Shown here: positions 16,238-33,564 of the stretch, piece after piece
Position numbering within the stretch: the first letter of the stretch is position 1
Layout: each line of letters opens with the position of its first letter
NCBI RefSeq assembly: GCF_001746415.1
Contig: NZ_MEHJ01000001.1
Span: 3,183,001 to 3,247,000, forward strand
Direction: 5' to 3'
Source: Streptomyces agglomeratus
GTDB taxonomy: Bacteria > Actinomycetota > Actinomycetes > Streptomycetales > Streptomycetaceae
DNA: 64,000 nucleotides
Notes under the pieces: generated by a model
Databases searched by the model: none
Told to the model about the DNA's origin: nothing
The model's input: only the letters and a program-made list of their open reading frames with translations
Made by a program: the position numbers and the translations under genes

Positions 16238-17362
16238 TCAGCCCAGCGCGGGCAGTCGCTGGACGTCCCGCGCCGTGGTCGTGACGCCCGCCAGGAAACC
16301 CTGGGCCCGGGGTGAGGCCGTGTCCCTCAGCCACAGCGGGTCCACGTCGCAAACGGCGACCCGCACGCCCGTACCGGCCAGGGCGAGCGGGAGCGTGTGG
16401 ACCACCGTCGACGGGAAGCTCAGGATCAGCCGGCCGATGGGCCCGCGCCGGGCGATGAGCTCCAGCGGCAGGTCGGGGCGGACGATCTCCAGACCCGTCT
16501 CGACGGCCAGCCGGTGCAGCTTGTCGGCGCTCTCGCGGCGGTGGGCGAAGTAGCGGGTGGCCCCGTGGGCGCGGGCCAGCGCGGTGACCGCCTCGACGTA
16601 CCGGTCGGGGTCCACGACGCCGGTCTCCACCAGCGACGTACCGACGAGGTCGGCGCCGCGCGATACGCGGGGCGGGCCGAAGCGGGCCCGCGTCCAGCCG
16701 AAGTCGTTGGCCGTGACGGTGACCCCGGGGGCCTCCTCCACGGGCATCGAGGTGAAGACCTCGACCGTGCGGGCGCGGGACGGGGTGAGGCGGCGGCGCG
16801 CGACCGCCGAGACCGGCCCGAAGACGAGGTCGCGCGGCCCCCGGCGGCCGCCGCGCCGGTGCCAGCGCACCAGCCGCTCGCCGCCGGTGAGCTGGGCGAT
16901 GAACTCCATGGTGGCCGTGCCGTCGTCGACGACGACCAGCTCACGGGCGCGGGTGATCGTCAGCAGCAGCTGTACGTACCGCGAGAACGGGTCGCCGATC
17001 ACCACCCGCCGCGCCCGGCGCAGGGCGGACGCCAGCCCGCCGATGGTCTGGAACGGCGCCCCCGCCCCGCCCCGGGCCTCCTCCCACCGCACCCGCATGC
17101 CTTCGTGGCGCGCGAGTTCCGCCATGCGCCGCAGCTGGCCGCGGGTCATGGGATCGGTGGGCGACAGGACGACGACCGTGAGGTCGTGCGGCCGGTTCCG
17201 GGCCTCGGAGCCCGCCTCGGTGCCTGCCGTCGCGTGGGCCCACTCCAGGACGTTCAGGAGCTGGACCGGGCTCTCGACGAAGGCGAGAGTGGAGGCGTCG
17301 GTGGCGGGGGTGCCGTTCACGGCGATGTGGACCGTTCGTCCGTCAGACCGCGACGGGCTCAC
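16238..17362 (-). CDS. Polysialyltransferase-like glycosyltransferase
   Basis: 374 residues. The N-terminal strand TLAFVESPVQLLNVLEWAHA, the middle VVIGDPFSRYVQLLLT and VVVDDGTATMEF, and the His-Arg-Glu motif in RYFAHRRESADKLHRLAVET with SFPSTVVHTLPLAL are the pattern of the GT52/alpha-2,8-polysialyltransferase group (GT-B fold, CMP-sialic acid donors). Begins at a GTG inside the end of neuB (20-base overlap), so it is the last gene of the neuA-neuB run and likely adds or polymerises the CMP-activated nonulosonic acid made by those enzymes. Acceptor and linkage cannot be told. Confidence 0.75.
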   Translation of the reverse strand: MSPSRSDGRTVHIAVNGTPATDASTLAFVESPVQLLNVLEWAHATAGTEAGSEARNRPHDLTVVVLSPTDPMTRGQLRRMAELARHEGMRVRWEEARGGAGAPFQTIGGLASALRRARRVVIGDPFSRYVQLLLTITRARELVVVDDGTATMEFIAQLTGGERLVRWHRRGGRRGPRDLVFGPVSAVARRRLTPSRARTVEVFTSMPVEEAPGVTVTANDFGWTRARFGPPRVSRGADLVGTSLVETGVVDPDRYVEAVTALARAHGATRYFAHRRESADKLHRLAVETGLEIVRPDLPLELIARRGPIGRLILSFPSTVVHTLPLALAGTGVRVAVCDVDPLWLRDTASPRAQGFLAGVTTTARDVQRLPALG

Positions 17363-18269
17363 GGTCGGCGCCCTCGGCGACGACGCCCGCGACGCGGCGC
17401 AGCTTCTTCATCGGGCCGAGCTCGGACTCGTACACCTTCTTGACGCCGTCACCGAGGGACGCCTCGATGGTGCGGATGTCGCGGACGAGGCGGGTCAGGC
17501 CGCCGGGCTCGACGGAAGCGGCCTGGTCGGAGCCCCACATGGCGCGGTCGAGGGTGATGTGGCGCTCGACGAACGCGGCGCCGAGGGCGACGGCGGCGAG
17601 CGTCGTCTGGAGGCCGGTCTCGTGGCCGCTGTAGCCGATCGGGACGTTCGGGTACTCGGCCTGGAGGGTGTTGATCACCCGCAGGTTGAGCTCCTCGGCC
17701 TTCGCCGGGTACGTCGACGTGGCGTGGCAGAGCAGGATGTTGTCGCTGCCCAGCACCTCCACGGCGTGGCGGATCTGGCGCGGCGTCGACATGCCGGTGG
17801 AGAGGATGACGGTGCGGCCGGTGGCGCGCAGCGAGCGCAGCAGCTCGTCGTCCGTGAGTGACGCGGAGGCGACCTTGTGGGCCGGGACGTCGAACTTCTC
17901 CAGGAAGGCGACGGCCTCGGTGTCCCACGGGGAGGCGAACCAGTCGATGCCGCGCTTCTTGCAGTACTCGTCGATGGCGCGGTACTCGTCCTCGCCGAAC
18001 TCCACGCGGTGGCGGTAGTCGATGTACGTCATCCGGCCCCACGGGGTGTCGCGCTCGATGTCCCACTGGTCGCGCGGGGTGCAGATCTCCGGGGTGCGCT
18101 TCTGGAACTTGACCGCGTCGCAGCCGGCGTCGGCGGCGGCGTCGATGAGCGCGAAGGCGTTCTCGATGTCGCCGTTGTGGTTGATCCCGATCTCGCCGGT
18201 CACGTAGACGGGGTGGCCGGGGCCCGCGGTCTTGGAACCGAGGGTACGGAGGCGCGAGTTGGTGCTCAT
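17343..18269 (-). CDS. neuB: N-acetylneuraminate/Kdn synthase family protein without SAF domain
   Basis: Condenses phosphoenolpyruvate with a mannose-type sugar to a nine-carbon nonulosonic acid. TIM-barrel features: VYVTGEIGINHNGDIENAFA, AVKFQKRTPE, FASPWDTEAVAFLEKF, KVASASL, ILSTGMSTPRQIRHAVEVL, the metal-ligand His residues in LLCHATSTYP and FVERHITLDRAM, and IGYSGHETGL. At 308 residues it stops right after the barrel: the C-terminal SAF (antifreeze-like) domain of ordinary NeuB, which lends an arginine to the partner's active site, is absent. Start at 18269 is supported by GGAAAAG upstream. The absence of a NeuC epimerase here favours a Kdn-type product (inference). Confidence 0.92.
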   Translation of the reverse strand: MSTNSRLRTLGSKTAGPGHPVYVTGEIGINHNGDIENAFALIDAAADAGCDAVKFQKRTPEICTPRDQWDIERDTPWGRMTYIDYRHRVEFGEDEYRAIDEYCKKRGIDWFASPWDTEAVAFLEKFDVPAHKVASASLTDDELLRSLRATGRTVILSTGMSTPRQIRHAVEVLGSDNILLCHATSTYPAKAEELNLRVINTLQAEYPNVPIGYSGHETGLQTTLAAVALGAAFVERHITLDRAMWGSDQAASVEPGGLTRLVRDIRTIEASLGDGVKKVYESELGPMKKLRRVAGVVAEGADREPVAV

Positions 18270-18298
18270 GTGGTTCTTTTCCTTACGGGGGAGGTGAG

Positions 18299-19588
18299 TT
18301 ACGGGGCGGGGGTGAGGGTGGGGATGTGGCTCGGGGTGGAGTCGGGCGTGGAACTCGGCGCGGAGCTCGTGGTGTGGGTGAGGGACGGGCCGAGGATCCA
18401 GGTGGCGATCTCGCGGATCGCGCCCTCCCCGCCCGGGACGGCCGTGACGGCACGCGCGGCGCCACGGACGGTGTCGTGGGCGTTGGCGACCGCCACCGGC
18501 CAGCCCACGAGGGCCAGGCAGGACAGGTCGTTGACGTCGTTGCCGGCGTAGAGCACCCGCTCGGGCGCGACGCCCTGCTCCTCGCACCACTGCTTGAGGG
18601 CGAGGTCCTTGCGGTCGACGCCGTGGAGCACGGGGATGCGCAGCTTGCGGGCCCGTGCGGCGACGACCGCGTTCTGTTCCGTGGACAGGATCAGCAGCTT
18701 GAGCCCCGCCCTGCGCAGGGCCGCGATGCCGAGCCCGTCACCGCGGTGCACGGCGACGAGTTCGCGTCCTTCGGAGTCGATCAGCACCCGGTCGTCGGTC
18801 TGGGTGCCGTCGAAGTCGATGACGACCGCGTCGACGTCGTCGCGGGTCGGAAGGGCGCCCGCCGCCTCCCTGGAGTCCAGGAGGGGCGCCAGCGCGCGGG
18901 CGCGGGCGAGCTCGTGGTGGTCGTCGATCTCCAGGACACGGGCCGGGTCCGTGACGACGAGCGCCGTGCGCCCGAAGAAGCGGTGTCCGGCCCCGCGGAA
19001 CCCCGCGGCGTCCATGGCGTACGCCGCGCCCGTCTCCAGGAAATCCTGCGGACGGTCCTGGCGGCGGGGGCGGAAGCTCTTGTCGTGGTTGACCCCGGCG
19101 GCGGCCCCCGCGGCGTCCTCGCGCCAGACGAAGCCGTGGAACGGGGCCACCGTGTGGGCCGTGTCCGCGCCGTCCTCGACGACCGCCGCGCAGACGCCGT
19201 CGACGTCCTCGCTGGTCAGGAACGGGCTCGTGCACTGCACCAGCAGCACCACGTCCACCGGCGCGCCGTGCGTCGCCTCGTGGGCGTCCATGGCGTGCAG
19301 TACGGCCGCCTCGCTGGTCGCCGTGTCGCCCGCGATACCGGCCGGGCGCTGCACCACTTCGGCGCCCGCGCCCCGCGCCGCCGCCGCGATGGCGGGGTCG
19401 TCCGTCGAGACCACGACGTGCGTGACACGGCCGGCCCCCAGGCACGCCCGGACGGCGCGTGCCACAAGCGGCACACCCGCGACGGGGGCGAGGTTCTTCG
19501 CCGGTACGCCCTTGGACCCGCCGCGGGCGGGGATCACGGCGAGGACGCGCCGTCGTACACCATCGGTCTGCTGCGGCCGGCTGCTCAT
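18299..19588 (-). CDS. neuA: CMP-nonulosonic acid cytidylyltransferase fused to KdsC-like HAD phosphatase
   Basis: 429 residues, two domains. Residues about 12-240: NeuA, with the nucleotide-binding VLAVIPARGGSKGVPAKNLA, VVVSTDDPAIAAAA and LLVQCTSPFLTSEDVDGV, activating the sugar acid with CTP. Residues about 250-410: HAD domain with the nucleophile motif DFDGTQTDD, the Ser/Thr motif LLILSTEQN and the acid motif GNDVNDLSCLALVG, like Kdo-8-P or Kdn-9-P phosphatases; catalytic residues are intact, so it may dephosphorylate the synthase product before activation. The C-terminal 20-odd residues are a Pro/Thr/Ser tail. Start overlaps the upstream gene (ATGA); neuB follows after 29 bases. Confidence 0.92.
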   Translation of the reverse strand: MSSRPQQTDGVRRRVLAVIPARGGSKGVPAKNLAPVAGVPLVARAVRACLGAGRVTHVVVSTDDPAIAAAARGAGAEVVQRPAGIAGDTATSEAAVLHAMDAHEATHGAPVDVVLLVQCTSPFLTSEDVDGVCAAVVEDGADTAHTVAPFHGFVWREDAAGAAAGVNHDKSFRPRRQDRPQDFLETGAAYAMDAAGFRGAGHRFFGRTALVVTDPARVLEIDDHHELARARALAPLLDSREAAGALPTRDDVDAVVIDFDGTQTDDRVLIDSEGRELVAVHRGDGLGIAALRRAGLKLLILSTEQNAVVAARARKLRIPVLHGVDRKDLALKQWCEEQGVAPERVLYAGNDVNDLSCLALVGWPVAVANAHDTVRGAARAVTAVPGGEGAIREIATWILGPSLTHTTSSAPSSTPDSTPSHIPTLTPAP

Positions 19589-20877
19589 AGTTCTCCCATG
19601 CGGCGGATGACGGGTGCCACGCGCTGCACCCCGTGGCGGTAGGCCCCGCGCGCCGCCTCCCGTACGGCGTCGCGCAGGACGCGGCGTACGCCGGTGACGT
19701 CGGTGGTTGTCCGCGTGCCGTCGAGGCGGTGGCGGGCGAGGATGCCGGGGAGGTAGCCCGGCGCGGTGGCGGAGGTGTAGTAGGGGGCGACCGGCGGGAG
19801 GCCGGGGCGCCCCAGGAGTGCGGTGACGCGCTTGCGCACGGCGTCGAAGGCGGTGTCGTACGAGCCGTCGGCCGCCACTCCCTGACGCGCCAGCCACTCC
19901 TCGTCGGCCGGCGGCCGGTGCCCCGCGTCGAGCTGGTCCCAGGAGGCGAGGCAGCCGGAGCCGAGGAAGTGGTGGTTGCCGAGGACCTCGCGCACGCCCA
20001 GGTCGGTGAGGACGGCGGTCGGGATGCGGCGGTGCAGGGACTCCAGGGCGGCGGTCGAACTGACCGTCACGAGGAGGTCGGTACGGTCCAGGACCTCGCC
20101 CATGTGCCCGTACACGAGCCGGAAGTTGGGCGGCGGGCCGCCCTCGATGCGGGCCGCGAGCTTCTGGTAGGGCAGTTCCTCGATGTGCGTGGTGTGCTCG
20201 CCCGGCTTGCTGCGGAGCTTGAGCAGCACCTCGCGGCCGGGGTGCAGCCGGGCGTGCTGGACGAGGCGGCGCAGCAGGTAGGCGCGGTCGGCGCGGGACT
20301 GCGGGACGGAGGGCTGGGCGGCGAACACGACGGTACGGGTGTCCGTGCCGGTGTAGCCGTCGCCGCCGAGGAACGGCAGCGCGGCCTCCGTCACGGCCGA
20401 GGCGTCGGCGCCCACCCCCTCGTACACCGCGCGGAAGCGTTCCGCGTCGTGGCGGGAGTTGGCGATGACGATGTCGGCGCCGTGGCGCAGCAGCAGCCCG
20501 TCGGCCAGCTTCTCGTAGACGACGCCGACGTAACCGGTGCCGATGACGGGCCGGCGCTCGGTGGTGCGCCACAGCGGCGCGAGGCCGTGCAGCATCGCCT
20601 GTACGGCGCCGCCCACGAGGGCGAGCAGGACGACGTCGTACGGCTCGTGCTCGATCTCCCCGATGAACTCGGCGGCGGTCACCTCGCGCACACCGTCCAC
20701 CGGCACGCCGACCTCGGCGAGCTGGCGGGGTGTGGGGGTGGCCCGGCCGCGCAGCAGGAAACCGTCGATCCGGGCTTCCGGCGCGATACGGCGGGCAGTG
20801 AGGGCGCCCCATTTCCATCGCGTATCGGAATCGGCGATCACGGCGATCCGCAGGGTTTTGCTGGTACTTGCTGGCAC
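19585..20877 (-). CDS. DUF6716-type putative glycosyltransferase
   Basis: About 430 residues, GT-B-like: an N-terminal Rossmann strand RIAVIADSDTRWKWGALTAR, YDVVLLALVGGAVQAMLHGL, RPVIGTGYVGVVYEKLADGL, and a C-terminal half with REVLLKLRSKPGEHTTH, DLLVTVSSTAALESLHRRIP and TAVLTDLGVREVLGNHHFLG, the pattern of CDP-glycerol/poly-sialyl type transferases. I recall this architecture under the name DUF6716 in streptomycete nonulosonic acid clusters. Overlaps neuA by four bases. I chose GTG at 20877 just before the first strand; an ATG-type start at 20916 is possible. The 163 bases up to 21041 form a divergent promoter region. Confidence 0.75.
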   Translation of the reverse strand: MPASTSKTLRIAVIADSDTRWKWGALTARRIAPEARIDGFLLRGRATPTPRQLAEVGVPVDGVREVTAAEFIGEIEHEPYDVVLLALVGGAVQAMLHGLAPLWRTTERRPVIGTGYVGVVYEKLADGLLLRHGADIVIANSRHDAERFRAVYEGVGADASAVTEAALPFLGGDGYTGTDTRTVVFAAQPSVPQSRADRAYLLRRLVQHARLHPGREVLLKLRSKPGEHTTHIEELPYQKLAARIEGGPPPNFRLVYGHMGEVLDRTDLLVTVSSTAALESLHRRIPTAVLTDLGVREVLGNHHFLGSGCLASWDQLDAGHRPPADEEWLARQGVAADGSYDTAFDAVRKRVTALLGRPGLPPVAPYYTSATAPGYLPGILARHRLDGTRTTTDVTGVRRVLRDAVREAARGAYRHGVQRVAPVIRRMGEL

Positions 20878-21040
20878 ATCGACGAAACTAGGGAGCCATT
20901 CCGATTGACGGCCCAACTCAGCCGCAACAAACGGTTAACAGCACATCGACGATCGGCGTCGGCGCCCGGAAAGCAGGCAGGTTAACCATTCCGCCATTCT
21001 TCGTTCACCCGGCATCTTTCCGGGGGTCGCAACGAATGCC

Positions 21041-22054
21041 GTGGCACGCCCTAGCGTCGCGGAGGTGGTCAAGCTCTCTGTCGTCGTGCCGTTCTTCAAC
21101 GTGCAGACATACGCCCCAGACACCCTTCGAAGTCTCCGCGCGAACGCGCGGGACGACTTCGAATTCATCCTCGTCGACGACTGTTCGACGGACGGAACGC
21201 CGGAGATCCTCCAGCGCGCCGAGCACGACCTTCCGGGGGCGGCCCTGGTCAGACACGAGACCAACGGCGGCCTGGCCACCGCCCGCAACACCGGTATCGA
21301 CGCGGCGCGCGGCGAGTACCTGACCTTCCTGGACGGCGACGACTGGCTGGCCCCCGGTCACTACGCGCGCCTGCTCGCCGCCATGGAGGACCTGGGCTGC
21401 GACTTCGTGCGTACGGACCATGTGCAGTGCACCGGGCGTACGCGGACGGTGCACCGCGTCCCGCACGGAAGGCGCGGCGTCGTCATGTCGCCGCGCGACG
21501 CGATCCTGCCGGCCAGCCGCTCCACCTCCGTCGACTACGCGTTCGCGTGGGCCGGCATGTACCACCGCAGGCTCGTCGACCGGGGGCTGCTGCACTTCAC
21601 CGACGGACTGCGCACGGCCGAGGACCGGCCCTGGATCTGGCGGCTGCACCGGGAGGCCGAGAGCTTCGCGGCGCTCGGCACGCTGGGCGTCTTCTACCGG
21701 CGGGGCGTCTCGTCCTCGCTGACGCAGATCGGTGACGTACGGCAGCTCGATTTCATCCGCGCTTTCGACCAGGTCGTCGAAGAAACGGCGAAGGACCCGG
21801 ACGCGGACCGGCTGCTGCCGAAAGCGGTGCGCACGTACTGCGCCATCATTTCCCATCACCTGGGAAGCATCGAAAGGTTCGAACCGGCCGTGGCCCGGAA
21901 ATTGCGGACGATGAGTACGGCGGCGCTCAGGCGGATGCCGCAGGACTTTCTCCGGGACGCGCTGGATTCCATGGACACGGAGCGTGCGGTACGGCTGCGG
22001 CGGCTGCGCCGCCGGCCCGCCGCCGCGTCCGCCGCGCCGGGGGTCGCTGCCTGA
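21041..22054 (+). CDS. GT2-family glycosyltransferase
   Basis: Inverting GT-A glycosyltransferase of 337 residues, cytoplasmic. The first strand KLSVVVPFFNVQTYAPDTL, EFILVDDCSTDGTPEIL, ETNGGLATARNTGIDAARGE and the DxD motif FLDGDDWLAPGHY define the GT2 domain. The C-terminal helical part resembles TagF-associated or capsule GT2 enzymes (AEDRPWIWRLHREAESF, VFYRRGVSSSLTQIGD). Start uncertain: GTG at 21041 or at 21065. Divergent from the neuA run and coupled (TGATG) to the following polysialyltransferase-like gene, so it likely builds the sugar chain to which nonulosonic acid is added. Confidence 0.9.
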   Translation: MARPSVAEVVKLSVVVPFFNVQTYAPDTLRSLRANARDDFEFILVDDCSTDGTPEILQRAEHDLPGAALVRHETNGGLATARNTGIDAARGEYLTFLDGDDWLAPGHYARLLAAMEDLGCDFVRTDHVQCTGRTRTVHRVPHGRRGVVMSPRDAILPASRSTSVDYAFAWAGMYHRRLVDRGLLHFTDGLRTAEDRPWIWRLHREAESFAALGTLGVFYRRGVSSSLTQIGDVRQLDFIRAFDQVVEETAKDPDADRLLPKAVRTYCAIISHHLGSIERFEPAVARKLRTMSTAALRRMPQDFLRDALDSMDTERAVRLRRLRRRPAAASAAPGVAA

Positions 22055-23388
22055 TGCCCACCACGCAGATCTTCTTCGCCTCCACGCTGTACGGCGCGGC
22101 CACGCTCGCCGCCGCGATCGACAGCGACTGCTTCGCGCCGGCCGGCCGCCGCCTGCTCCTCGTCAGCAACAACGCGACGACGCCCGAGACGACGCCCGCC
22201 CTGGACGAGATGCCGGGCTTCGAGCGGCTGCGGGACCGTTTCGACGGCGTACTGTCCTGGAACGAGACCGTCGCGCCCTTCCACCCGGGCGCCTGGGCAC
22301 CGCGCGTGGACGACATCCCGCTGTGGGAACGCCACCTGCGGCTGCTGTGGGGCCTCGGTGACGACACGGTGGAACTGGTCGTCGAATCCATCCAGGTCAA
22401 TCCCGCGCTGGCGCTCACCCAGCTGTTCACGGACGCGCCCGTCGAGGTGTACGCCGACGGGCTGATGAGCTACGGCCCGACCCGCAACAAGCTCGACCCG
22501 CTGGTCGGTACGCGCGTACGGCGTCTGCTGCACCTGGACCTCGTGCCGGGGCTGACGCCGCTGCTGCTCGGGGAGTTCGACGTACCGCCGGAGCTCGTAC
22601 CGAACGAGGCGTTCCTGAAGGTCCTGACCGAACTCGCCGACGCAGAGACGGAGTTGACACTCCCGGCCGACTCGGCGCTCCTCCTCGGCCAGTACCTGTC
22701 GGCGCTGGGCATCCTCACCGCCGAGGAGGAGGAGAATCTGCACGTCGCAATGGTGCGCGGCGCCGTCGAGCGCGGCCACCGGCGGATCATCTTCAAGCCC
22801 CACCCCACCGCCCCGGCCCGCTGGTCGCGCGTGCTGGAGCGCGAGGCGCGGGAGCTGGGCGTCGAACTGACCGTCCTGGACAGCCCCGTGCTGGCCGAAG
22901 TGCTGTACCAGCGGTTCCGTCCCGCGCTGGTGGTCGGGTGCTTCTCGACGGCGCTGATGACGGCGAGCACGTTCTACGGCATCCCGGTGGCCCGCACCGG
23001 GACCGACGTGCTGCTGGAACGCCTCTCGCCGTACCAGAACAGCAACCGCGTACCCGTCACGATCGTCGACGCGCTGGTCCCGGACCTGGCGCGGGACGGC
23101 ACGGCGGCGGAACCGGACGACCTCGCGGGCCTCCTCCAGGCGGTCGGCTTCGCCATGCAGCCGCAGATCCGCTCCGACCTGCGCCCAGCGGCCGAACGCT
23201 TCCTGACGCGGCATCTGAACGGCCGCACCTGGCGTTACTTCAAGCGCCGCCGGCTGACCACGCTCGCCCTGCCGGGCGCGATCCCGCAGCAGTTCGCCTT
23301 CATCCCGCGCAACGCGACGCTGCGGCGCGTGGTCCGCAGGGCCCGGTCCCTCAAGAGGACCGCGCTCAAGAAGGCCGCGCCGAGGTGA
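22054..23388 (+). CDS. Alpha-2,8-polysialyltransferase-family protein
   Basis: 444 residues. TTQIFFASTLYGAATLAAAI and LLLVSNNATTPETTP at the N-terminus, TVELVVESIQVNPALALTQL and VEVYADGLMSYGPTRNKLDP in the middle, then HRRIIFKPHPTAPARWSRVL and LVVGCFSTALMTASTFYGIP, the H-P and S-T motifs of the polysialyltransferase family (PF07388-type). Ends in a basic segment (RRVVRRARSLKRTALKKAAP), suited to membrane association. Translationally coupled to the GT2 gene. With the protein at 16238 it is the second such enzyme in the cluster, so one may start and the other extend the polymer. Confidence 0.85.
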   Translation: MPTTQIFFASTLYGAATLAAAIDSDCFAPAGRRLLLVSNNATTPETTPALDEMPGFERLRDRFDGVLSWNETVAPFHPGAWAPRVDDIPLWERHLRLLWGLGDDTVELVVESIQVNPALALTQLFTDAPVEVYADGLMSYGPTRNKLDPLVGTRVRRLLHLDLVPGLTPLLLGEFDVPPELVPNEAFLKVLTELADAETELTLPADSALLLGQYLSALGILTAEEEENLHVAMVRGAVERGHRRIIFKPHPTAPARWSRVLEREARELGVELTVLDSPVLAEVLYQRFRPALVVGCFSTALMTASTFYGIPVARTGTDVLLERLSPYQNSNRVPVTIVDALVPDLARDGTAAEPDDLAGLLQAVGFAMQPQIRSDLRPAAERFLTRHLNGRTWRYFKRRRLTTLALPGAIPQQFAFIPRNATLRRVVRRARSLKRTALKKAAPR

Positions 23389-23409
23389 CGGCGGGTCTCG
23401 TACGACGGT

Positions 23410-23444
23410 GAGGGCGGGCCACCGCTGATCAGTGGCCCGCCCTC
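23410..23444. terminator. Bidirectional terminator between convergent glycan genes
   Basis: Perfect 13-base inverted repeat GAGGGCGGGCCAC / GTGGCCCGCCCTC with a 9-base loop, between the plus-strand polysialyltransferase gene and the minus-strand fusion gene. Confidence 0.85.
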
Positions 23445-23492
23445 CTCTCGTACGTACGGGTCCGGACGTACAGGTGTCCGGGTTGTCCGGGG

Positions 23493-25823
23493 TCAGCCGG
23501 CCGGGCGGCCCAGGATCACCCGCAGGTCGGCCGCGTTCGCCTCGGTGACCTTCCACAGCTCCTGCTGACGGCCGTGCACGTCAGCCACCGACGCCGCGTG
23601 GTCGTCCAGCAGCCCCAGCGCGCGCTCGGTGAGCACCGCCCCGAGGTTCTTGTCGTGGACCGAGATACCCCACTCGGGCCGGTCGATGTCGGCCAGGAAG
23701 TACGCCATCTTCGGGTGCGAGATCAGGCTGATGATCGGCGTGCCGCAGCCGAACGGGATCATCCCCGCGTGGCCGCGCATCCCGATCACCAGCTTGGTGC
23801 GGGCGTACGTGTCCCTGATCGCGTCGTTGTCGAAGTCGTACATCGGGATGACCGGCAGCGACACCCCGTGCTCGCGCCGCAGATCGAACGCGATCTTCTC
23901 GTCGTCCAGCGAGTGCGCCACGCACTTCACCTCGGCGTGCGCGCCGAGCGCCCGCACGGCCTTCGCCATCTCGGCGAGGAAGTGACCGTAGTCGTGCCCG
24001 AAGCGCAGACCCGCCCGGTCGTACGCCGCGTTGACCAGCACGGTGTTCTCACGGTGCCGCGGGTCGGTCCAGCCGTCCACCAGCCGGCGGGTGACGGTCG
24101 TCGGGCAGGGCTGGAAGCGCACCTTGTCGTGCAGCTCGGCGGGGAGCAGCGACCGTACCTTCTCGATCGAGCCGTGGTTGCGGAGCCCGAAGAAGGACGC
24201 GCGCTCGACGAGGGCGCGCAGGGCGGTGTTGAAGCGCCCGGCCCGGTAGGACTGGCCGTCGAAGGCGTTGAACCCGACGGCGTACACCATGACGGGTACG
24301 TCGACGCGGTTCAGCAGCGCGTCGGGGACGTTCCACTGCCAGGCGCTGTTGCCGTTCGGCGCGGTGTCCGGGATGAACAGTCCGCCGCCGCCGATGACCA
24401 GGCCCCGCCGGGCGTTGACGCGCTCCAGGGCCGCCTCGTCGAAGAGCCGGTGCGCGTGGACGGAGTGCCACTTCCGGGGACCGGTGTCGGCGTCGAAGGT
24501 CAGCCGCACGGTCTCCGGCAGCAGCTTGTCCCCCGCGTTGCCCTGCCGCTCCATGTAGAAGGCGACGTGCGCGAGCTGCTCTTCGGCGACGCCCTCCTCC
24601 TGGGCCGGCGGGTTCTCCGTACGCAGGCGCATCAGCCGGTTCGCCCGGTGGGTCGGGTCGACCCGCAGCCCGTCCAGCGCGTACCGCTGCGCCGCCTCGT
24701 CGTCGCCGTGGACCCAGGCGATCTGGGCGAGCCTGCCGAAGGCGGTGGCGGCCCGGTTCGGGGCGGCCGTCGCGAGCAGCAGCTGCGCCCTGGCCTCGTC
24801 GTAGCGCGACACGCTCATCAGCGCGTGGCCCAGGACCTCGTGCGGCCAGGCGGAGTCCAGCGGGATGCGTACGCTCCCGAGCAGGTCCACCGCTTCCTGG
24901 TACTCCCCCGCCGCGATGTGGGCCGCGGCGACCTTGCGGGCGCTCTCCACGTCCCCGGTGCGCCGGACGTGCGGGGTGCCGAAGTGCACGAGCAGGTCGT
25001 GGTGCGCGCCCTTGGACTGCGCCAGGAAGGCGGCGTGGAACTGCGCGTCGGACAACTCGAACTCGCGCCAGCGCTCCTCCGCCTTCCCGTACCCCGCCTC
25101 ACCGCCCTGCCAGGGCTTGTGCCGCCCCGTGAAGTGCAGGATCGCCGTGTCGTCCGGTACGGGCAGGTCGCCGGACAGCCGCCGCTTGACGAAGTTGTAG
25201 CGGGCGTCGAGCTGGACGAAGTCCCCGTCGAGCACGGCGTTGAGGATGCCCTGGTCGTGCTTGTCGAGTTCGTACGCGCCGCTGCGTCCGGTGGCGTCGA
25301 TCCGCGCGCAGAACTCGTCGCTCAGGTATTCGCGCTGGATGACGAGCAGACCACTGTTGAGCTTGTGCTGCCCGTAGAAGAACTGCGGTACGGCCGCGAG
25401 CCCCTCGCGCAGTTTCAGCAGCTCGCCGAGGTCGCCGAGGACCACCATGTCGGTGTCCAGGGTGATCACGGTGTCGTAGTCGCGGATGCGGAAGACGTCG
25501 AGGATGAAGTACGCCTTGCGGACCAGGTAGTTGTCCTGGTCGCCCTTCGCGTACGCGTCGTAGCGCGCGGCGTCGACGCGCCGCAGCTCGACGCGCGGGT
25601 GCAGCGCCCGGATGCGGGCCACGGAGGAGGGCTTCAGGTCGTCGTGCAGGACGATGAAGTCCTCGCACACGCCCGGATTGGACAGGGCGAGACTGCGCAG
25701 CAGGGCGAGGAAGCCGGGCAGGTAGTTCTCGTCGACGAAGCTGGCGAAGGCGATGCGGCGCTTGCCGGTGAGCGCGTTGGCGGGGCCGGCGGCCGGGGCC
25801 GTCGCCGTGGTGGTGGATGTCAT
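23493..25823 (-). CDS. GT8 glycosyltransferase - TPR-like - polysaccharide pyruvyltransferase fusion
   Basis: 776 residues, three parts. About 20-270: GT8 domain with RIAFASFVDENYLPGFLALL, the donor/metal motif TLDTDMVVLGDL, GQHKLNSGLLVIQ and HFTGRHKPWQ. About 300-415: helical repeats resembling TPRs (AGEYQEAVDLLGS, SRYDEARAQLLLA, GDDEAAQRYALDGLRVDPTH). About 425-770: polysaccharide pyruvyltransferase fold with NAGDKLLPETVRLTF, LVIGGGGLFIPDT, FFGLRNHGSIEKVRSLLP, CPTTVTRRLV and GMRGHAGMIPFGCGTPIISL. It could place a sugar and then a ketal pyruvate on the wall polymer. The start ATG overlaps the stop of the GT29 gene by four bases. Confidence 0.88.
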   Translation of the reverse strand: MTSTTTATAPAAGPANALTGKRRIAFASFVDENYLPGFLALLRSLALSNPGVCEDFIVLHDDLKPSSVARIRALHPRVELRRVDAARYDAYAKGDQDNYLVRKAYFILDVFRIRDYDTVITLDTDMVVLGDLGELLKLREGLAAVPQFFYGQHKLNSGLLVIQREYLSDEFCARIDATGRSGAYELDKHDQGILNAVLDGDFVQLDARYNFVKRRLSGDLPVPDDTAILHFTGRHKPWQGGEAGYGKAEERWREFELSDAQFHAAFLAQSKGAHHDLLVHFGTPHVRRTGDVESARKVAAAHIAAGEYQEAVDLLGSVRIPLDSAWPHEVLGHALMSVSRYDEARAQLLLATAAPNRAATAFGRLAQIAWVHGDDEAAQRYALDGLRVDPTHRANRLMRLRTENPPAQEEGVAEEQLAHVAFYMERQGNAGDKLLPETVRLTFDADTGPRKWHSVHAHRLFDEAALERVNARRGLVIGGGGLFIPDTAPNGNSAWQWNVPDALLNRVDVPVMVYAVGFNAFDGQSYRAGRFNTALRALVERASFFGLRNHGSIEKVRSLLPAELHDKVRFQPCPTTVTRRLVDGWTDPRHRENTVLVNAAYDRAGLRFGHDYGHFLAEMAKAVRALGAHAEVKCVAHSLDDEKIAFDLRREHGVSLPVIPMYDFDNDAIRDTYARTKLVIGMRGHAGMIPFGCGTPIISLISHPKMAYFLADIDRPEWGISVHDKNLGAVLTERALGLLDDHAASVADVHGRQQELWKVTEANAADLRVILGRPAG

Positions 25824-27337
25824 CGCAGGGAGATCCTCATGTCACTGACGCTCTGGGCGCGTTCCATGACCCACGCCTTTTCGCTGGTGTATTCGTGCAC
25901 GGAGGTGATGGGCATCCGCATCGCCTCCTGGAGGCGGTAGGCGCCGCTCTCGTAGAAGTCGAAGCCGATGAGGTCGAGCGTCGGGCTGACGTCGAGGAAG
26001 TCCAGCAGCCAGAGCATGTTGAAGCCGCTGGTGGGGATGGACGACCACACCTCCGTGCCGACCCTGCCGATGTTGCGCAGCGGCCAGCGCAGCGACTCGT
26101 CGCCGAGGTACTTCTGGGCGCCCGGCACGAGCCGGTTGCGCAGCGAGTGCTTCCAGTCGCCGGAGACACCGCCGAAGACGAGGCGGGTCATGACCGGCCG
26201 GTCCCAGTTGAAGCCGTGCTTGTGGATGGTGGCGTGGATGTCGGTGCGGCTGCCGGTGGCGACCGCGTCGATCTTGTACGAGTTGAAGCGGACGACGAGG
26301 TCGTACGCGTCGATCTCCGCTCCCAGCGTGCCGCGCCCGACGCGCTGGGAGTTGGCTATCAGGCAGATGGACTTGCCCGCGATCTGGTTGCGGAACTCGC
26401 CGAGGGTGATCCAGTCGACGCCGCCGAAGGTGGGGTCGGCGACCGGTCCGCGCATCCGGTTCCTGCGCTGCTCGGCGTAGAGCGTGATCAGCTCGCGCAG
26501 CTCCGCGGCCTCGCCGCCGTTCGCCGCGACCCGCAGTTCGAGGTACTGGCTCACCGCCGCCTGGATGTCCTGCACCGGGCTGCCGCCGCGCTCCATCGCG
26601 AGCAGCGCGCCGATCAGGCGCGGTTCTGCCTGCTCCCGGCTGCCGCGCGCGTGCAGTGCGAGGCCCTCGGCCCAGATGTCGGTGGGGTGTCCGGCGGTGT
26701 ACGCCGCTGCCCCCGGGCACTGGCGCTCCAGCAGCCGCAGCAGCTCGTGCTGCCGCCGCCCGCCCTCCCGCATCCCGGCGATCCTGGGCGCCACTCCGAA
26801 GCCGTCGTCGTCGGTCAGCGCGAGGTAGCGCTCGTACGCCTCGACGGTGGCGGCCTCGTCGCCGATGGCCTCCAGTGTGCGGGCGCGCAGCCGCCAGCCG
26901 GCCCGGGAGTTCCTGCGCCCGGTCAGCACGGTGTCGCTGATGAGCAGGGCCAGCCTCAGCTCGTCGTCGTAATCGCACTCCAGGGCCTTGCTGCCGACCG
27001 CCAGCAGTGCGTCGAGCAGCTCTCCGCCCAGCGCGTCGGCGGCGCCCGCCGGGGCTTTGGCGGCCCGCCGGATCAGGGCCGTGGCACCGGAGGCGGCCGG
27101 CGCGGGGGCCGGTTCCACCGCCATGGCCTGCGTGACGAGCAACTGCCGCAGCGTCTCGGCGAGTTCGTTGCGACGGCGGTCGAGTCCGGCGACGAGCTTG
27201 CCGCTGTGCACGGCGCACGCGCGCAGGCACTCGTCCAGTCCGGTGGGGCTGATCCCGTTGATCCCGTTGCCGTCCGGCGCCCCGGTGGGGTTCTCACCGT
27301 CGCGTGGTCTCGGCCATCGGTTGCGGGCCTTCGTCAT
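25820..27337 (-). CDS. GT29-like sialyltransferase with helical N-terminal region
   Basis: 505 residues. The N-terminal 320 or so are helical, poorly conserved and carry repeats like those of the neighbouring fusion protein (ATVEAYERYLALTDDD, REQAEPRLIGALLAMERGGS). The C-terminal 190 read as GT29: the large sialylmotif SICLIANSQRVGRGTLGAEI DAYDLVVRFNSYKI with TGSRTDIHATIH, the small motif SIPTSGFNMLWLLDFLDV plus LDLIGFDF, and the H-x4-E of motif VS in HEYTSEKAW. GT29 enzymes use CMP-sialic acid; here the likely donor is the CMP-nonulosonate made by neuA. First gene of the minus-strand run; followed by the fusion gene with an ATGA overlap. Cytoplasmic (no signal). Confidence 0.8.
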   Translation of the reverse strand: MTKARNRWPRPRDGENPTGAPDGNGINGISPTGLDECLRACAVHSGKLVAGLDRRRNELAETLRQLLVTQAMAVEPAPAPAASGATALIRRAAKAPAGAADALGGELLDALLAVGSKALECDYDDELRLALLISDTVLTGRRNSRAGWRLRARTLEAIGDEAATVEAYERYLALTDDDGFGVAPRIAGMREGGRRQHELLRLLERQCPGAAAYTAGHPTDIWAEGLALHARGSREQAEPRLIGALLAMERGGSPVQDIQAAVSQYLELRVAANGGEAAELRELITLYAEQRRNRMRGPVADPTFGGVDWITLGEFRNQIAGKSICLIANSQRVGRGTLGAEIDAYDLVVRFNSYKIDAVATGSRTDIHATIHKHGFNWDRPVMTRLVFGGVSGDWKHSLRNRLVPGAQKYLGDESLRWPLRNIGRVGTEVWSSIPTSGFNMLWLLDFLDVSPTLDLIGFDFYESGAYRLQEAMRMPITSVHEYTSEKAWVMERAQSVSDMRISLR

Positions 27338-27931: not shown

Positions 27932-27969
27932 AGTCGCCCTCCGACTTAGCCGAGGTGGGCGACTTTTTT
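27932..27969 (+). terminator. Rho-independent terminator before the capsid gene
   Basis: AGTCGCCC and GGGCGACT (27932-27939 and 27957-27964) form a stem followed by a run of six T, a classical intrinsic terminator that is rare in this genome type. It lies only 25 bases before the capsid GTG, so it may attenuate capsid expression. Confidence 0.8.
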
Positions 27970-27993
27970 GTGCCCATGCTCAGAGGAGAAAAA

Positions 27994-29399
27994 GTGAAGC
28001 CCGAACTGTGCAAGGTGTTTGATGCTGCCGAGAGCCGCACTGACGGACTGGCGGCCAATGAGGTTGCATTCATCATCAAGAATGCTGGCGATAAGCGAGA
28101 GAGTGTCCTGTCGGTTATTAACCAGGCTAAGGCAAGCACGCCCGAAGGGCGCGATGCGCTTCGGACTGTATTTGAGGGAGATCGGTCGAACGTTGGCGGT
28201 GAACTTCGCGCACAGGTAGATCGCATATCTGCGAATCACGAGGTCCGCAATCTTGAGAAGAGTCTTCGCGAAAAGACTGGCTCTTACCGCTTTGACTCCG
28301 CTCGTGGCCTGCTCGCGCAGCGTGCCGAGCTTGTTAATGAGCTGCGAGATCTCGCCGGTAATGTGAGCCTTTCCATCCCGGAACGGCGGCAGCGATTCCA
28401 GATTATCGAGTCGCAGATTCACGCGCTGGTACAAGACGCGCGGGATGAGATGGCCGACGGTGACCGCGAGACTGAAGTTCGCTCTATCACCTCGAAGCAG
28501 AAGGGGTTGTTTACTGTCCGGCAGCAGGACAGCCGAGAAGATGATTCGTGGCGCAGTCTTCTTCCCTCCGGTGAGGAATATCGAACTCTGGTTGCGGAAA
28601 ACGCTCCGGGCACCGGTGGTTACGCCGTCCCCGATAAGGTCGCCAGTGAATACGTTGACCACCTGCGCGCGGCGTCCGTTCTTCTGCGAGCCTCGATCAA
28701 TGTGCATCCATTCGACGGCGGCAGCTTCATGCTGCCGAACCTGACGGGTTCTGGTTCCTCCACCGTTGTTGCGGAGGGTGCGGCGATTCCAGAGAACTCG
28801 GCCACCTTCGGCCCTCTCGCTTTTGAGCCGATCAAGTATGCCGACCTTTACAAGGCGAGCGGCCTTCCCCATGAGGGAGTTGATCGGGTCCGTCATGGTG
28901 AAGAACGTTGCCTCAAGGTGGACTTCGATGCATTCCAGGGCACGGGAACAGGGTCTTCAAGGGGCTTATCAGCCTTGGCGCGACCACGAACCTTCCCGCT
29001 GGGGCTACCGCAAACCGCTGGGACGACGTGCACGATGCCTACGCCGCTATTGAGGCGGCGGGTGCGACTCCGGGTGTTATCTTCGCTTCCCCGGATCAGG
29101 CCAAGGCGTTGCGAAAGGCCCGCGAGAACGGAACTTCGGGGGCGTACCTTGCCGGCACGGTGACCGATCCTGCGGCAGTGCGTGGCCTCGGCCTGCCTAT
29201 CCACGTGAGTGCGAATATTCCGGCTCGCCACGTGATTGTGGCCGATCCCTCGCGAATTCACATGGGCGCGCGCTCGGAAGTCCGGGTTGCCATGTCGGAG
29301 CACATGGAATTCGATAAGGATGTGTCGGTCTACCGGATCGCGGGACTGGCAATCGCCGAGACTGCTTCAGTGCAGATCCTCAAGGCAGCCGCCAGCTAG
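27994..29399 (+). pseudogene. HK97-type phage major capsid protein, frameshifted
   Basis: From a GTG with AGGAG seven to ten bases upstream, the frame encodes a helical scaffold-like region (residues 1-170) and the HK97 N-arm/P-domain TGGYAVPDKVASEYVDHLRA ... INVHPFDGGSFMLP ... KYADLYKAS. Near 28870 the sense moves to another frame (MRELIGSVMVKNVAS), returns for KVDFDAFQGTGTG, and from about 28955 continues in the third frame as FKGLISLGATTNLPAG, TPGVIFASPDQAKALRKARE, IPARHVIVADPSRIHMG and a stop at 29397-29399. At least three shifts in about 100 bases; both ends are otherwise well preserved. No portal, protease or terminase gene lies nearby. Confidence 0.8.
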
Positions 29400-32913: not shown

Positions 32914-33564
32914 CTACGCGCTTGCCAGAGACAGCTTGACGGCGAACCCCAGGAAGAGCGCCCCGGCCGCCGAGGTGGCTCCTGCGCTGAGCGTCCTCCG
33001 ACGACGGAACGCAGCAGCAAGACGGGACCCGCCAAAGATGAGCGCAGACAGGTACAACACGCTTGCCACCTGGGCGAGTACGCCTAGAGTCACGAACCCC
33101 ACGACCGGGTTGGACTCTGACACGAACTGCACGAAGAAGGAGATGAAGAAGAGGATCGCCTTGGGGTTCAGCAGGCTGATCACGAAGGCACGGCGGAACG
33201 GGCGCTCGGCGGCCGGCGCCGCGTCGGCCTCCGGGGCGCCGGCGTCCGTCAGTTCGTGGCGGCTGCGCCACATCGACCACGCCGCCCGCATCATCCCGAT
33301 CGCCAGCCAGGTCAGGTAACCGGCGCCGGCGTACTTGACGATCCCGAAGAGCAGCGCGTTCGCCTGGAGCAGCGAGGCGACGCCCGCCGCGGACAGCACC
33401 ATCAGGACCGCGTCGCCGCACCACACGCCCGCGGCGGCCGTGTAGCCCGTGCGTATGCCGCGTCGCGCGGCGACGGACAGGACGTAGAGGGAGTTCGGAC
33501 CCGGCAGAAGAATGATCAGGACGAGCCCGACGAGGTAGGTCGGCAGATCGGTTACACCCAGCAT
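32914..33564 (-). CDS. LysE/LeuE-family amino acid exporter with element-derived 3' end
   Basis: 216 residues, six hydrophobic segments. The family signature is LVLIILLPGPNSLYVLSVAA with GYTAAAGVWCGDAVLMVLSA, then RRAFVISLLNPKAILFFISF and a terminal ATSAAGALFLGFAVKLSL. Exports an amino acid such as leucine. The last 45 or so codons are lower in GC than the rest and duplicate, with many silent changes, the fragment at 27497-27635. The gene is thus a chimera that was kept intact by the insertion. ATG 33564 is the natural start. Confidence 0.93.
   Translation of the reverse strand: MLGVTDLPTYLVGLVLIILLPGPNSLYVLSVAARRGIRTGYTAAAGVWCGDAVLMVLSAAGVASLLQANALLFGIVKYAGAGYLTWLAIGMMRAAWSMWRSRHELTDAGAPEADAAPAAERPFRRAFVISLLNPKAILFFISFFVQFVSESNPVVGFVTLGVLAQVASVLYLSALIFGGSRLAAAFRRRRTLSAGATSAAGALFLGFAVKLSLASA

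Follow-up and report, generated by a model that had tools for sequence, protein, structure and literature searches.

Kdn (2-keto-3-deoxy-D-glycero-D-galacto-nononic acid) is a relative of the sialic acids of animal cells. The teichulosonic-acid cluster of Streptomyces coelicolor was reportedly described by Ostash et al. 2014. Published systems are compared here as far as excerpts of the cited papers describe them. According to these, genes SCO4873-SCO4882 of S. coelicolor are the teichulosonic-acid genes, with SCO4878 as the GT2 glycosyltransferase gene, and PhoP activates them when phosphate is limiting (PMC13011467; PMC8003754; PMC2267785; PMC8269224). A PhoP-SCO4878 interaction is also described (PMC8857197). 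The polymer contains galactose and Kdn, with N-acetylglucosamine (GlcNAc) or methyl (PMC7831098; PMC11481543). A wall polymer with 7,9-pyruvylated Kdn occurs in Promicromonospora citrea (PMC6801904). A phosphorylated Kdn route from mannose-6-phosphate is known in Bacteroides thetaiotaomicron and Prymnesium parvum; the bacterial route to N-acetylneuraminic acid (Neu5Ac) is non-phosphorylated, so that no phosphatase is needed (PMC6200933). Here we describe a cluster of eight genes in Streptomyces agglomeratus, located at positions 16238-27337 of a 64-kb stretch (the window) of a 9.13-Mb, 100% complete genome.

The cluster groups NeuB, NeuA, a GT2 enzyme, a polysialyltransferase-like protein and a DUF6716 protein in one conserved arrangement, as in the teichulosonic-acid (Kdn) type of streptomycetes. 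Judging from the sequences, it very probably serves to synthesise and assemble an acidic Kdn cell-wall polymer. We regard it as likely that the locus is the streptomycete version of the PhoP-controlled SCO4873-SCO4882-type cluster, equipped with the Kdn route proposed below and with an accessory module. The cluster type is already known. What is newly seen is a possible marker based on loss of the SAF domain of NeuB, a candidate transferase family and a genomic context for bacterial GT29 proteins. All eight genes named in an earlier note on this DNA are long open frames at the positions it gave. Two open reading frames, those of NeuB and of the NeuA fusion, were too long as gene extents and were trimmed using domain matches and ATG positions.

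NeuB (about 17343-18269, minus strand; start set at the ATG that is residue 108 of its open reading frame) contains the PF03102 catalytic barrel (Pfam, E 2.4e-81). No SAF domain was matched in it with Pfam and NCBIfam models. It is a predicted Kdn-9-phosphate synthase. On the same strand (about 18299-19588), a NeuA domain (CTP_transf_3, E 1.1e-20) is fused to a HAD domain of the KdsC/Kdn-9-phosphate phosphatase type, and the Pfam matches bear out the NeuB and the NeuA-phosphatase fusion of the earlier note. In the HAD half, DFDGTQTDD and GNDVND are found in 46/46 aligned rows and the HAD residues are intact. A whole-genome search for families that make N-acetylmannosamine (ManNAc) returned no PF02350 (NeuC-type UDP-GlcNAc 2-epimerase), no PF04131 (NanE) and no PF07221 (GlcNAc 2-epimerase); among 14 control genomes, the three occur in 11, 8 and 2, respectively. 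The genome does encode a mannose-6-phosphate isomerase. Kdn had been put forward in the earlier note as the likely sugar. The absence of the three families beyond the cluster, across the genome, and the known S. coelicolor cluster back this choice, and a Kdn-type wall polymer is therefore favoured.

Some observations weigh against this assignment. The HAD half matches the KdsC and KDN-9-PPhBT models below their cut-offs, with 75.8 bits for the Kdn-9-phosphate phosphatase model NF058599 (curated cut-off 180). NeuB scores 250 bits with TIGR03569 (NeuB_NnaB; cut-off 399.65), aligned over model positions 1-277 of 329. With both proteins under the curated NCBIfam cut-offs, sequence does not settle the substrate. 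Moreover, PDB entry 6ncs (290 residues, matched to residue 277), the solved structure most closely related to the window NeuB, is apparently SAF-less and was named Neu5Ac synthetase by its depositors, so that SAF loss is no sure sign of Kdn. The same entry speaks for an N-acylated or otherwise modified nonulosonate of the Neu5Ac, legionaminic or pseudaminic type, whose precursor would come from an unrecognised epimerase, as do the facts that NeuB and NeuA families are common to nonulosonate pathways and that the best scores include those of the TIGR03569, PseI and PseF models, all under cut-off. We consider such a sugar improbable in view of the missing NeuC, NanE and GlcNAc 2-epimerase families, of a NeuA-fused phosphatase that would be superfluous in the non-phosphorylated bacterial Neu5Ac route (PMC6200933), and of the Kdn carried by the wall polymers described for Streptomyces (PMC11481543, PMC7831098).

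With Kdn as the preferred sugar, the following route can be proposed. The SAF-less NeuB would join mannose-6-phosphate and phosphoenolpyruvate into Kdn-9-phosphate. The HAD domain would then dephosphorylate this product and the NeuA domain of the same protein would form cytidine monophosphate (CMP)-Kdn. The PF07388 protein and the unnamed protein encoded at 16238, both of the GT-B type, would transfer Kdn from CMP-Kdn to a growing, presumably lipid-linked chain, while the DUF6716 and GT2 enzymes would make the hexose linkages. Transport of the polymer and its attachment to the wall would be encoded outside the cluster. The TPR-GT29 and GT8-TPR-PF04230 proteins would add a strain-specific decoration, probably a further CMP-Kdn-dependent transfer and a hexose, possibly also a pyruvate ketal. 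Under phosphate shortage, this phosphate-free acidic polymer would replace phosphate-rich ones. Gene content, conservation, the absent ManNAc families, the intact residues and the fold match were computed; enzyme activities, the sugar and the order of steps are what we infer.

The cluster is conserved in Streptomyces. A genome scan with the GT29 protein as query gave 91 confirmed stretches, from which 80 loci, all of Streptomyces, were kept. The cluster genes found keep a single order and orientation in 80/80 loci, and because this order recurs the cluster is not a chance assembly. GT29 and GT8-PF04230 are both present in all 80 and are adjacent among the queried genes. All eight genes occur in 46 loci; the other 34 are without at least one downstream gene in the fetched stretch, owing to a contig end, the 10-kb flank, an insertion or a loss. 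Among 150 genomes of the same genus (Streptomyces, the window genome counted in), 139 have NeuB and 43 a GT29-like gene (one at E 4e-5 only). NeuB is thus near-universal and the GT29 module accessory. Class-wide, GT29 was found in 7/296 genomes. One Streptomyces genome (G430) has two NeuB genes (C9:942177-943292 and C19:1704052-1705050), and each of them is accompanied by a separate 16238-type gene; the second of these scores lower.

The SAF domain of Neisseria NeuB provides an arginine in contact with the ManNAc N-acetyl group; SAF loss would suit a substrate without N-acetyl. NeuB tails were surveyed in the phylum and class samples, where 43 of the 58 returned loci were classed. The 15 others, with E 8.8e-17 or weaker, were excluded beforehand; strong matches without a fetched locus and many weak matches (E >1e-20) were also left out. 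The SAF domain was judged by the length of the C-terminal tail in the 43 loci and by Pfam in 10, where it was found in 7/7 long-tailed and 0/3 short-tailed proteins. The tail has at most 12 residues in 26/43 loci and at least 51 in 17/43. The short-tailed NeuB stands beside a NeuA-HAD fusion in 24/26 cases, the long-tailed one in 0/17 (Fisher, p = 4e-10; outside Streptomyces 13/15 vs 0/17, p = 3e-7); linked loci share ancestry, so that these p values are too small and overstate independence. Near the long-tailed NeuB, a plain NeuA is seen in 6 loci and no NeuA in the stretch in 11. As a point against the pattern, plain NeuA is therefore proven for only 6/6 SAF-length-tail loci, since 11/17 show none. 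The two SAF-less NeuB genes without NeuA-HAD in the fetched stretch are L118 (G562), where the locus ends, and L130 (G425), which continues; L130 may use a separate CMP-synthetase. In a limited literature search, no publication connecting SAF loss with Kdn synthesis was recognised. The pairing of a SAF-less NeuB with an adjacent NeuA-HAD fusion may offer an easy way to recognise Kdn producers from their genomes.

The PF07388 polysialyltransferase-type enzyme (22054-23388, plus strand), located at the SCO4877 position, is a predicted CMP-Kdn transferase. Its family match is over the cut-off (115 bits vs a gathering score of 23.3, E 6.2e-33), in agreement with the polysialyltransferase-like label of the earlier note, and its ADG, KPHP and CFST motifs are present in 74/74 rows. 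The other transferases named there are also recovered by Pfam: the GT2 glycosyltransferase (21041-22054, plus; PF00535, E 7.3e-35) at the SCO4878 position, the DUF6716 putative glycosyltransferase (19585-20916, minus; PF20471, E 1.3e-109), whose true start may be slightly downstream of 20916, and the GT8/pyruvyl protein (23493-25823, minus; PF01501, E 2.5e-18, and PF04230, E 8.9e-13). That the chain is built by the GT2 and GT8 enzymes is unproven. Three sialyltransferase-like enzymes of two families had been announced. The enzymes fall into three families (PF07388, the unnamed GT-B protein and GT29) with two folds.

The unnamed protein (16238-17362, minus strand, 374 residues) is a candidate CMP-Kdn transferase and probably occupies the SCO4882 position. 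It gives only weak matches, to unrelated Pfam and NCBIfam models (E 0.013 or worse). Its description as polysialyltransferase-like is thus left without a sequence family and is carried by motifs, fold and conserved residues. DDG is found in 20/20 rows, and S-[FL]-P followed by two S/T residues likewise in 20/20. In a fold comparison by Z score, its GT-B fold comes closest to a sialyltransferase. Together, the modelled fold and the conserved residues support a bacterial sialyltransferase-type GT-B enzyme. Against this, the HP motif is replaced by HRR or HRK in 20/20 rows, Foldseek by itself places MurG and WaaC above any sialyltransferase, and a profile comparison of the family with the PF07388 protein shows no similarity (probability 0.2). 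Profile comparison among the cluster transferases gave no relationship, and searching the PDB by sequence with the 16238 and 22054 proteins did not turn up a useful relative. Given the HRR/HRK replacement, we describe the 16238 protein as GT38-like in function rather than assigning it to GT38.

A GT-B fold is also that of sugar epimerases, and a NeuC-like activity at 16238 would provide ManNAc and thereby undo the case for Kdn. This is very improbable: a polysialyltransferase stands four Z units higher in the fold comparison, the conserved DDG, H, E and S/T residues fit the site of a CMP-donor sialyltransferase, and 75 aligned 16238 sequences gave no PF02350 match at E 0.1. In ten genomes of other genera with relatives of the unnamed 16238 protein, the gene lies 4.7-17.6 kb from NeuB in nine, so that the cluster layout differs there; in genome G318 the two genes are on different contigs.

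The accessory module consists of the TPR-GT29-type sialyltransferase-like protein (25820-27337, minus strand) and of the GT8-TPR-PF04230 fusion. The window GT29-like protein itself is under the PF00777 cut-off (14.6 bits vs a gathering score of 23, E 0.022), and 49 of the 60 aligned sequences match this family at E ≤0.01 (best 1.4e-6). The name "glycosyltransferase family 29 protein" is already on many of the 120 relatives listed. In the H-x4-E motif, H is present in 78/80 and E in 80/80 rows, and the N-S, R-F-N and T-G stretches are largely kept in the 80 rows; we take these to be the sialylmotif-type residues of GT29, chief among them H-x4-E. The proposed structure check, favourable to the 16238 fold, is less clear here: Foldseek pairs the protein with rat ST6GAL1 at probability 1.0 and E 0.017, the catalytic part of the model being mostly of low predicted confidence (pLDDT <60), and a second structural aligner, run on the full-length model with this weak part, listed TPR matches. 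In a PDB sequence search, rat ST6GAL1 (E 1.5) was the only relative of any use. One TPR model is matched by up to 21 of the 60 aligned sequences.

The GT8/PF04230 protein shows weak Pfam TPR matches between its two domains. Its polysaccharide pyruvyl transferase-like domain, of the ketal-pyruvyl transferase family PF04230, scores 49.2 bits (gathering score 25.3), with the CsaB model under cut-off, and IGGGGLF is found in 79/79 rows. A pyruvate ketal is thus possible; decoration of the polymer with it is unproven. The P. citrea polymer is a precedent for it (PMC6801904), but the S. coelicolor polymer is described in the excerpts with galactose, Kdn, GlcNAc or methyl and without pyruvate (PMC7831098; PMC11481543).

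Linkage of GT29 to CMP-Kdn genes is a new clue to the role of GT29 in bacteria. In a limited literature search, no paper linking GT29, TPR and Streptomyces was recognised. The GT29 match is at most 25 kb from NeuB on the same contig in 31 of the 43 same-genus genomes. The remaining 12 count against a common function and would suit a mobile decoration module that is unrelated to Kdn, uses a different donor, such as CMP-Kdo or a UDP-sugar, and often sits beside the cluster; for some of the 12 the assembly is fragmented and NeuB lies on a different contig. GT29 is 1.2 Mb from NeuB in G458 and on another contig in G467. Two of the 12 have no NeuB; their contigs end about 60 bases past the GT8-PF04230 match, so that a gap is possible. 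We find a module independent of Kdn rather unlikely, given its place beside NeuB in 31/43 genomes and the presence of NeuB in 41/43. All 7 class-level GT29 genomes also have a strong NeuB, and in the 4 of them outside Streptomyces this NeuB is SAF-less (one of the four GT29 matches is weak, E 2.4e-8). Six outlying loci showed no CMP-Kdo genes next to the module, in a search with this cluster's own proteins only.

Upstream of the GT2 gene, an array of three 11-nt units (20981-21013, plus strand; GTTAACCATTC CGCCATTCTTC GTTCACCCGGC, the middle one degenerate) resembles a PhoP box. It came from an alignment-based scan only. A scan of the window with the strict two-unit PHO box consensus found none at the cluster promoter and 3 hits vs 5.6 expected. 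A single GTTCA[CT]C unit is kept in 65/66 orthologous regions, the window among them; the three-unit pattern is found in 22/66, leaving 44/66 without the full pattern. None of 13200 mononucleotide shuffles held the three-unit pattern, which was picked after the sequences were inspected, in regions that share ancestry.

The cluster comprises three units of transcription direction. The first (minus, 20916 to 16238) carries DUF6716, NeuA-HAD, NeuB and the unnamed GT-B protein, with short gaps or overlaps; the NeuA-HAD start overlaps the DUF6716 stop. Divergent from it, the plus unit (21041-23388) carries the GT2 and PF07388 genes. The third (minus, 27337 to 23493) carries GT29 and GT8-TPR-PF04230, which overlap by four bases. 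Third-position GC bias is strong, with 7/8 named frames in the biased list; NeuA-HAD is missing because its open reading frame extends far past the gene. Downstream of the unnamed GT-B gene, an M20 hydrolase and an ABC transporter operon with cytidine deaminase and pyrimidine phosphorylase look unrelated. At the other end, HK97-type phage capsid pieces (phrog_10) adjoin the cluster in two overlapping frames (27955-29399, plus). This region, with its flank to about 32300, has a lower GC content (about 0.61) and contains DUF6879 and HTH/DUF5753 genes. A small protein (32914-33564, minus) matches the phage family phrog_16154, of unknown function (E 1.6e-36).

In the literature and database annotations looked at, several streptomycete genes presumed to place Kdn bear only names such as hypothetical protein or putative transferase. 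It is a tentative idea, on balance doubtful, that the 16238 protein founds a new CMP-Kdn transferase family (GT-B, with HRR for HP) tied to actinobacterial Kdn synthesis of the SAF-less, phosphatase-coupled kind, and that TPR-GT29 belongs to the animal sialyltransferase family as a bacterial enzyme with CMP-Kdn as donor. If so, bacterial GT29 enzymes would gain a substrate, SAF loss with NeuA-HAD fusion would mark Kdn synthases, and sialyltransferases of two unrelated folds would act on one wall polymer. Testable roles, above all for the 16238 family and GT29, would make polymer assembly accessible to direct assay, and likewise the bacterial branch of the animal sialyltransferase family.

Compared with SCO4873-SCO4882, gene names and order agree as far as the tables go (hypothetical, GT2, hypothetical, transferase, polysaccharide biosynthesis, hypothetical), and phosphate control may be shared as well (PMC13011467; PMC8003754; PMC2267785; PMC8269224). 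The correspondence is one of gene names (PMC2267785, PMC8269224). The predicted Kdn-9-phosphate synthase, Kdn-9-phosphate phosphatase and CMP-Kdn synthetase are shared with B. thetaiotaomicron and P. parvum, whereas the window has the last two in one protein (PMC6200933). With respect to the bacterial polysialyltransferases of CAZy GT38 (MhPST, 5wc6), the 22054 protein is alike in its PF07388 match and motifs; the 16238 protein shares the GT-B fold, the acidic pair followed by G, and the H, E and S-T residues, but has HRR for HP and no profile similarity to the PF07388 protein (PMC5517516). GT29-type motifs in a bacterial protein are common to the enzymes of Petit et al. 2018 and to the window, which adds an N-terminal TPR part and linkage to CMP-Kdn genes, both unmentioned in the excerpts of that paper (PMC5811610). 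Finally, the Kdn wall polymer of P. citrea carries a pyruvate ketal, as the PF04230 domain of the window would predict (PMC6801904).

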